The translations under genes and the position numbers were made by a program. Positions 31,524-33,163 of a stretch of 64,000 nucleotides of DNA are shown piece after piece (within the stretch, counting starts at the first letter, position 1; each line of letters begins with the position of its first letter). Below the pieces are notes generated by a model, which was not told where the DNA came from, ran no database searches, and saw only the letters and a program-made list of their open reading frames with translations. Source of the DNA: Chloroflexi bacterium ADurb.Bin180 (GTDB lineage: Bacteria > Chloroflexota > Anaerolineae > UBA2200); assembly GCA_002070215.1 (NCBI GenBank), contig MWCV01000012.1:1-64000 (forward strand), given 5' to 3'.

Positions 31524-32081
31524 ATGCTAACCGATAGCGAAAAGATGACCTTGCTCAAGCTGGCGAGGTCGACGCTGGAAGCCTTTTTCGCCGACCGGGA
31601 GCAGCCCCAGATGGACAACCCGTCAGCGGGTTTGCGAGAGCACTGCGGCGCGTTCGTGACCCTGACCGAGCAGGGCGAGCTGAGGGGCTGCATCGGCCAC
31701 TTGCGCAGCGAGCAGGAACTGTACCTCACCATTCAGCAGATGGCCATCGCCGCGGCGACGGAGGATCCTCGTTTCAGGCCGGTCTCGGCGGCGGAGCTGG
31801 CCCTGGTCCACATCGAGATCTCCGTGCTGAGTCCGATGGTCAGGGTAGCCGACGTGAAAGAAATCGAGATCGGGCGCGATGGGTTGTACATCGTCAGTGG
31901 TTTTCAATCGGGGGTGCTGCTGCCACAGGTCGCCACCGAGTGGGGTTGGGACAGGGACGAGTTCCTGGAGCAGGTGTGCCGCAAAGCAGGGCTGCCCCGC
32001 AACGCGTGGAGGGCCGGCTCGACGCTCTACCGCTTCAGTGCCCAGGTGTTCGAAGAACAGCTGCAGGCCAAGAGCGCTTGA
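31524..32081 (+). CDS. Stand-alone AMMECR1-domain protein
   Basis: A 185-residue protein consisting of a single AMMECR1 domain, with the family hallmark LRGCIGHL, the preceding GAFVTLTEQGE strand and the later VHIEISVLSPM. In many anaerobes this domain belongs to the AmmeMemoRadiSam group, next to a Memo-like and a radical SAM protein; neither partner is present in this window. Conserved Cys and surrounding residues suggest an enzymatic role, but the reaction remains unknown. The ATG follows a strong GAGGAGG site. The promoter of the next transcript overlaps its last codons. Confidence 0.88.
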   Translation: MLTDSEKMTLLKLARSTLEAFFADREQPQMDNPSAGLREHCGAFVTLTEQGELRGCIGHLRSEQELYLTIQQMAIAAATEDPRFRPVSAAELALVHIEISVLSPMVRVADVKEIEIGRDGLYIVSGFQSGVLLPQVATEWGWDRDEFLEQVCRKAGLPRNAWRAGSTLYRFSAQVFEEQLQAKSA

Positions 32082-32106
32082 CATCCGATTTGCTTTGTGC
32101 TACGAT
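32078..32106 (+). promoter_or_regulatory. Strong promoter of the structured RNA / metallo-hydrolase transcript
   Basis: A perfect TTGACA -35 (32078-32083), 17-bp spacer and TACGAT -10 (32101-32106) lie at the end of the AMMECR1 gene. The expected start is near 32112. Confidence 0.75.
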
Positions 32107-32111
32107 GACGC

Positions 32112-32297
32112 TGCGTCACCTGCCGTGTTCGTGATGCGCCGTATGTTTTGAGCCAACATGTGTTTCAAACGGGAATCATAGTGCTCAAGGGAATGTAGTA
32201 GCTTCCGAGCCAGGCAAACCCGCGAGGTTAGGTTCCCACCTGCGAGAGCAGGTTCGAAACTAAAGTGCACACGGCATGGCGGGGACGCCTTCTTTTT
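32112..32297 (+). ncRNA. Candidate structured RNA (riboswitch-like leader or small RNA), unknown class
   Basis: The transcript starting near 32112 can close on itself: GCGUC (32113-32117) pairs with GACGC (32284-32288) and UGCCGUGU (32121-32128) with ACACGGCA (32269-32276). Inside are GUAUGUU/AACAUGU (32141-32147, 32155-32161), GUUUC/GAAAC (32162-32166, 32256-32260), GGGAA/UUCCC (32171-32175, 32233-32237), a bipartite hairpin GCUC+GGAA (32183-32210), AACC/GGUU (32217-32229) and ACCUGC/GCAGGU with a GAGA tetraloop (32238-32253). A CUUCUUUUU tract follows directly. A short GGCG/CGCC hairpin (32278-32289) before the U-tract competes with the outer stem, as in a transcriptional switch. I recognise no known riboswitch, 6S, SRP, RNase P or tmRNA core. 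Folding was done by eye. Confidence 0.5.
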
Positions 32298-32311
32298 GTC
32301 TGGCGGGGTGC

Positions 32312-33163
32312 ATGAGACGCGACCGGATCGCAGAAGATATCTACACATTCAGCAGCGACGTTTACGCTCAGGTCACCTCCGGAGTCATCCTGACCACCGA
32401 GGGCACCATCGTCATCGATACCCTCCCCTTCCCCGAGGAAACCCGCCAGGTGCTGGCCTTTGCCCGCGAACGAGGCAAGGGGCCGGTGCGTTATGTCATC
32501 AACACCCACCACCACTCGGACCACACCAACGGCAACTTTTTGTTTCCGGAGGCAGAGGTCATCGGACACCGTTTGTGTCGCCAGAAGATGCTGACCTCTG
32601 GCGTGCGCACCCTTGCCGAAGCGAAACGGGAGCAGCCCGAACTGAACGAGGTGGAGCTCAGACCGCCCAACGTTGTCTTTGAGCACGATGTCTATGTGCA
32701 CCTTGGTGGCCGAGCGCTGTGCCTCACTCCCCTGCCCGGTCATACCGAGGATTCAATCGGGGTGATGATCGAGGGCGACCGGATCTTATTCTCCGGTGAT
32801 GCGGTGCTGCCTGTGCCTCACGTGGTCTGGGGAGACCCTGAGGAGATGATTCGTTCCCTCAAGGCGGTTCGAACGCTGAAACCAGAGAGCGTCATCCAGG
32901 GGCACGGAGATCTCTTGCTCAAGGGCGAACTCGTCGACGAGATCGAGTCCAGCATTCACTACCTGGAGTGCGTCACGACCAGGGTGCGGGAGCTGGTTCA
33001 GAAACGTGCACCCACCTCCGCGCTGCTCGAGATCGACATCGAATCGTGCGGCAAGTCGCGAGTGCCGTTGGATGGCCTGGTGCAGTTCCTGCACCGGGAC
33101 AATCTACTCGCACTCTACCACAAGTACCAGGCTGCCGAACGTCCCAGGAAGCCAGCCAGTTAG
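32312..33163 (+). CDS. MBL-fold metallo-hydrolase
   Basis: A 283-residue metallo-beta-lactamase-fold enzyme. The zinc signature is NTHHHSDHTNGN, followed by the later ligands in LPGHTEDSIG (His), FSGDAVLP (Asp) and GHGD near residue 195. No signal peptide is present, so it is probably cytosolic. The substrate cannot be told; relatives include glyoxalase II-like and quinohemoprotein-associated hydrolases. ATG 32312 is chosen over 32276, because 32276 lies inside the closing stem of the candidate RNA and adds 12 residues without similarity. The ribosome site is weak (GGCGGGG). Expression probably depends on read-through of the structured leader. Confidence 0.85.
   Translation: MRRDRIAEDIYTFSSDVYAQVTSGVILTTEGTIVIDTLPFPEETRQVLAFARERGKGPVRYVINTHHHSDHTNGNFLFPEAEVIGHRLCRQKMLTSGVRTLAEAKREQPELNEVELRPPNVVFEHDVYVHLGGRALCLTPLPGHTEDSIGVMIEGDRILFSGDAVLPVPHVVWGDPEEMIRSLKAVRTLKPESVIQGHGDLLLKGELVDEIESSIHYLECVTTRVRELVQKRAPTSALLEIDIESCGKSRVPLDGLVQFLHRDNLLALYHKYQAAERPRKPAS

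Follow-up and report, generated by a model that had tools for sequence, protein, structure and literature searches.

A single-copy 6S RNA gene upstream of a metallo-hydrolase gene in an uncultured Anaerolineae (Chloroflexota) bacterium

Positions 32112-32297 (+) of a 64-kb window, the whole stretch of DNA analysed here, almost certainly represent the single-copy ssrS (6S RNA) gene of a bacterium from the class Anaerolineae (Chloroflexota), with a housekeeping-type promoter and a rod-shaped product whose bubble mimics a promoter. 6S RNA is a widespread bacterial small RNA that mimics an open promoter and restrains RNA polymerase once growth stops. Family membership was determined with cmscan (Rfam 15), which placed RF00013 (6S/SsrS) at 32114-32288 (+) with 67.7 bits, compared to a gathering score of 46.4, and with the model covered end to end (positions 1-187 of 187). 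This was the sole Rfam match in the window, and no family besides RF00013, riboswitch families included, was detected within 32050-32350 at E-values up to 1. An earlier note on this DNA had placed here a structured RNA that has closed ends, is preceded by a promoter of its own and runs into a U-tract, and this was confirmed at about 32112-32297 (~180 nt). The note's assignment of the RNA to an unknown class did not hold, given the full-length match to RF00013 above the gathering score. The 3.13-Mb assembly contains one 6S copy only; a further, more divergent one was sought with Rfam and with a lineage-specific model and was not found. 6S RNA was known from Chloroflexi before (Wehner et al. 2014, via PMC7726162), and the RNA is a new but ordinary member of a known family, i.e. 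a formerly unlabelled 6S copy and neither a new RNA class nor a riboswitch.

Scanning of 600 bp for promoter-like sites returned a single one (shuffle mean 0.1), a predicted sigma-70-type promoter at 32078-32106 (+) with 10 of 12 consensus matches. It consists of a -35 element TTGACA (32078-32083), a 17-nt spacer and a TG-extended -10 element TACGAT (32101-32106). Based on the position of this promoter, the RNA would begin 6-8 nt past the -10 element, at about 32112-32114. The closing stem starts from 32113, in line with the previous proposal of a strong promoter that sets the 5' end beside a stem. Most 6S homologues are preceded by a similar promoter, likewise with a TG-extended -10 element. 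An AMMECR1-domain gene (31524-32081) lies upstream of the 6S gene, and its stop codon shares bases with the -35 hexamer of the window promoter.

The fold of 32112-32297 has a minimum free energy of -78.3 kcal/mol (z = -4.8), and none of 200 shuffled sequences was as stable. All parts of the RNA lie on the forward strand. The rod is closed by a stem of 32113-32132 (5' strand) and 32271-32288 (3' strand), the outer portion of which (GCGUC.../...GACGC) ends immediately 5' of the U-tract CTTCTTTTT, as the earlier note had correctly read. Helix P2 pairs GUUUUGAGCC (32145-32154), the pRNA template region, with GGUUCGAAAC (32251-32260). The 5' side of the central bubble (32155-32170) is largely unpaired as judged from the pairing probabilities of the fold and contains an invariant AACA, while the upstream (internal/terminal) helical arm of the rod (32171-32237) is marked by near-invariant GGG/CCC pairs. 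On the 3' side of the bubble, the hairpin CCUGC-GAGA-GCAGG (32239-32252) corresponds to the GNRA-capped helix drawn previously. In the pairing used here this hairpin and P2 have two bases in common and can thus compete. Folding with the template kept single-stranded, to represent bound pRNA, preserved the hairpin and lengthened it to 6 bp. Folds constrained by a bound 14-mer gave a GUUUC/GAAAC helix that collapses the central bubble; inspection of the alignment by eye showed that the 5' strand of this helix differs between relatives, and we do not claim it.

Conservation of the structure was evaluated on 33 homologues from the class, aligned by sequence and not fitted to the structure. Among these homologues, which were found with the Rfam model and are hence selected for likeness to RF00013, 84.6% of cells were paired for the 43 Rfam pairs carried over from the window sequence, and 24 of the 43 pairs displayed changes on both sides. 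Sliding the partners by 1-3 columns reduced pairing to 37-51%, and 0 of 500 shuffles matched the observed covariation score, number of both-side changes or share of paired cells. When RNAalifold was given no Rfam structure, it again arrived at the closing stem, P2 and the inner arm; 20 of its 42 pairs were compensated. The long rod with the closing stem and internal arm of 6S RNA is backed by compensatory changes; the test proposed in the earlier note for its own candidate thus upheld the structure, in favour of 6S RNA. The 3'-bubble hairpin was paired in 97.6% of cells (compared to 19-40% when slid); it is mostly invariant and therefore backed by conservation, without covariation evidence. 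P2 was paired in 97% of cells with double changes in three pairs, and the closing stem in 92.8% with both-side changes in 9 of 16 pairs. In the upstream arm, the pairs beside GGG/CCC show 10-11 double changes each; beyond them the arm fits the Rfam pairing loosely (64-71% of cells paired). The template strand GAGCCAACA is nearly invariant across the 33 sequences, and its AACA fully so.

A 6S match was present in 52 of 60 related genomes, in 47 of them above the cut-off. The lineage model retrieved 6S RNA in two (G016 and G043) of the eight relatives without an Rfam 6S match. Neither RF00013 nor the lineage-specific model gave a convincing 6S in G004, G009, G031, G046, G047 and G052, some of which are incomplete assemblies; G009 and G046, near-complete genomes of one family, may have lost 6S RNA or changed it strongly. 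The Anaerolineae-specific model missed E. coli 6S RNA, while RF00013 matches both E. coli and window 6S RNA. Two 6S matches each, the second below the cut-off, were seen in G038 and G054, and one Chloroflexi contig (L054) carries tandem 6S RNAs (173-341 and 432-598), both over the Rfam cut-off, upstream of the hydrolase. Separately, a T-box leader (RF00230, 99.2 bits) was observed in an Anaerolinea MAG (L042:7829-8229).

The 3' end bears a putative termination signal (32278-32297, +), composed of a GGCG-GGGA-CGCC hairpin (32278-32289) and the U-tract CTTCTTTTT. Its energy and its recurrence in relatives argue for this function: the hairpin alone amounts to -7.2 kcal/mol, and GGYG-GRGA-CGCC with a T run is found also in three loci (L032, L033 and L034) from the same family as the window genome. 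A scan of the 600-bp region for an additional terminator of the classical kind, with 5 or more stem pairs ahead of a T run, found none. The hairpin shares bases with the closing stem (3' strand), and in the full-length fold its probability is 0, because the closing stem (probability about 1) wins. Of the competition between outer stem and GGCG/CGCC hairpin postulated previously, the hairpin and its overlap with the stem are thus real, while the full fold leaves the hairpin unpopulated. Hairpin and U-tract look like an ordinary co-transcriptional terminator and not like a sign of ligand switching.

The start of the product RNA (pRNA) is predicted at the invariant C32157. In an ungapped comparison of the window segment GAGCCAAC with GAGCCGAU, which we take to be the corresponding E. 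coli sequence, U44 falls on C32157. U44 is the pRNA start of E. coli 6S RNA (PMC8876501). The predicted pRNA would read 5'-GUUGGCUCAAAACAU, with GUUGGCUCAAAAC as its first bases, and this start (GUUGGCUC/GUUGGCUCAAAAC) resembles that of the pRNA of B. subtilis 6S-1 (5'-GUUCGGUCAAAACUA, beginning GUUCGGUCAAAAC; PMC12005410). By analogy with the family, the RNA, transcribed from the housekeeping-type promoter, would present the open central bubble of its rod as a mimic of melted promoter DNA, bind the primary-sigma RNA polymerase holoenzyme and bar access to promoters, as it does in E. coli and B. subtilis. During recovery, the polymerase would copy the 5' bubble strand, starting opposite C32157, into a short pRNA (GUUGGCUCAAAAC...), the synthesis of which would break helix P2 and free the 6S RNA. 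Transcription of the 6S gene itself would stop at the U-tract past the closing stem, with possible read-through into the hydrolase gene.

This downstream gene (32312-33163, +) encodes a metallo-beta-lactamase-fold hydrolase (PF00753, E = 5.5e-26), in agreement with the metallo-hydrolase named in the earlier note, and the closest relatives of the protein are found in Anaerolineales/Chloroflexota MAGs, which places the host in Anaerolineae. Its start is most likely at 32312, given that a homologue from the same genus begins at the equivalent ATG; an alternative ATG at 32276 falls inside the 3' strand of the 6S RNA. The start thus follows the U-tract by 15 nt on the same strand, and together with the short hairpin and T run, which are real and recur within the family, this proximity could suggest a cis-acting riboswitch or attenuator that controls the hydrolase by letting the outer stem compete with the GGCG/CGCC terminator hairpin, in the manner of the attenuating riboswitch to which the earlier note had likened the RNA. 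We consider this reading to have practically no chance of being correct. The helices are explained by the architecture of 6S RNA, which the sequence matches over its full length, and what was taken for a competing hairpin is no more than the closing stem's 3' strand, followed by the U-tract. Moreover, among the 33 loci, which were picked by the RNA alone, the hydrolase lies downstream on the same strand within 1.5 kb in at least 17 (a lower bound, as some loci end earlier), at spacings of 24 to >1000 bp, and more distant relatives have the hydrolase without 6S RNA directly upstream. Such a partial association at varying distance makes cis control of the hydrolase unlikely as the main role of the RNA. 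With no constant position before a regulated gene, no Rfam match other than RF00013 and no hairpin in the full fold, the riboswitch or attenuator was rejected.

Compatible with the 6S identity, and an addition to it, is a dicistron in which the hydrolase is co-transcribed with 6S RNA by partial read-through at a weak terminator. The shared strand, the 15-nt gap in which no further promoter was found and the linkage in 17 of 33 loci are in its favour, as is the precedent of E. coli, where fau follows ssrS at 75 bp in the same orientation. However, a U-tract behind a stable stem suggests termination, and the spacing is not conserved, so that we regard co-transcription as a reasonable possibility which falls somewhat short of an even chance. 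It is improbable that 6S RNA and hydrolase form a conserved functional unit in the lineage, e.g. by growth-phase-dependent read-through at the overlapping closing stem and terminator hairpin; if true, read-through would couple polymerase sequestration to hydrolase expression. The arrangement of the 6S RNA and hydrolase genes is a lineage linkage like that of E. coli ssrS-fau and not a fixed leader-gene relationship.

These data set correct limits for the 6S RNA gene of an uncultured member of the Anaerolineae, and the alignment of 33 sequences together with the metallo-hydrolase linkage may aid the annotation of Chloroflexota genomes. Structural reasoning on sequence alone had hit a real global transcription regulator, the class of which was misread.

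Compared with known 6S RNAs, the window RNA is closest to the RF00013 homologues of Chloroflexota, which are found in most of the class and share the rod, central bubble, closing stem, P2 and 3'-bubble hairpin; it differs from them by normal sequence divergence only. As in B. subtilis 6S-1 RNA, a 5-bp 3'-bubble hairpin is already formed in the free RNA. In 6S-1 this hairpin is reported for both free and pRNA-bound RNA (PMC8876501), and its retention in the window RNA when the template was held unpaired is in line with the pRNA-bound form; in the window RNA, in contrast to 6S-1, the hairpin has two bases in common with P2. E. coli 6S RNA resembles the window RNA in its length (~180 nt), in a GAGCC template segment and in a same-strand protein gene downstream, which is fau in E. 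coli and a metallo-beta-lactamase-fold hydrolase here. The E. coli pRNA starts opposite U44, whereas the window pRNA is predicted to start with G opposite C, and, unlike E. coli 6S RNA, the window RNA has a U-tract directly behind its closing stem.
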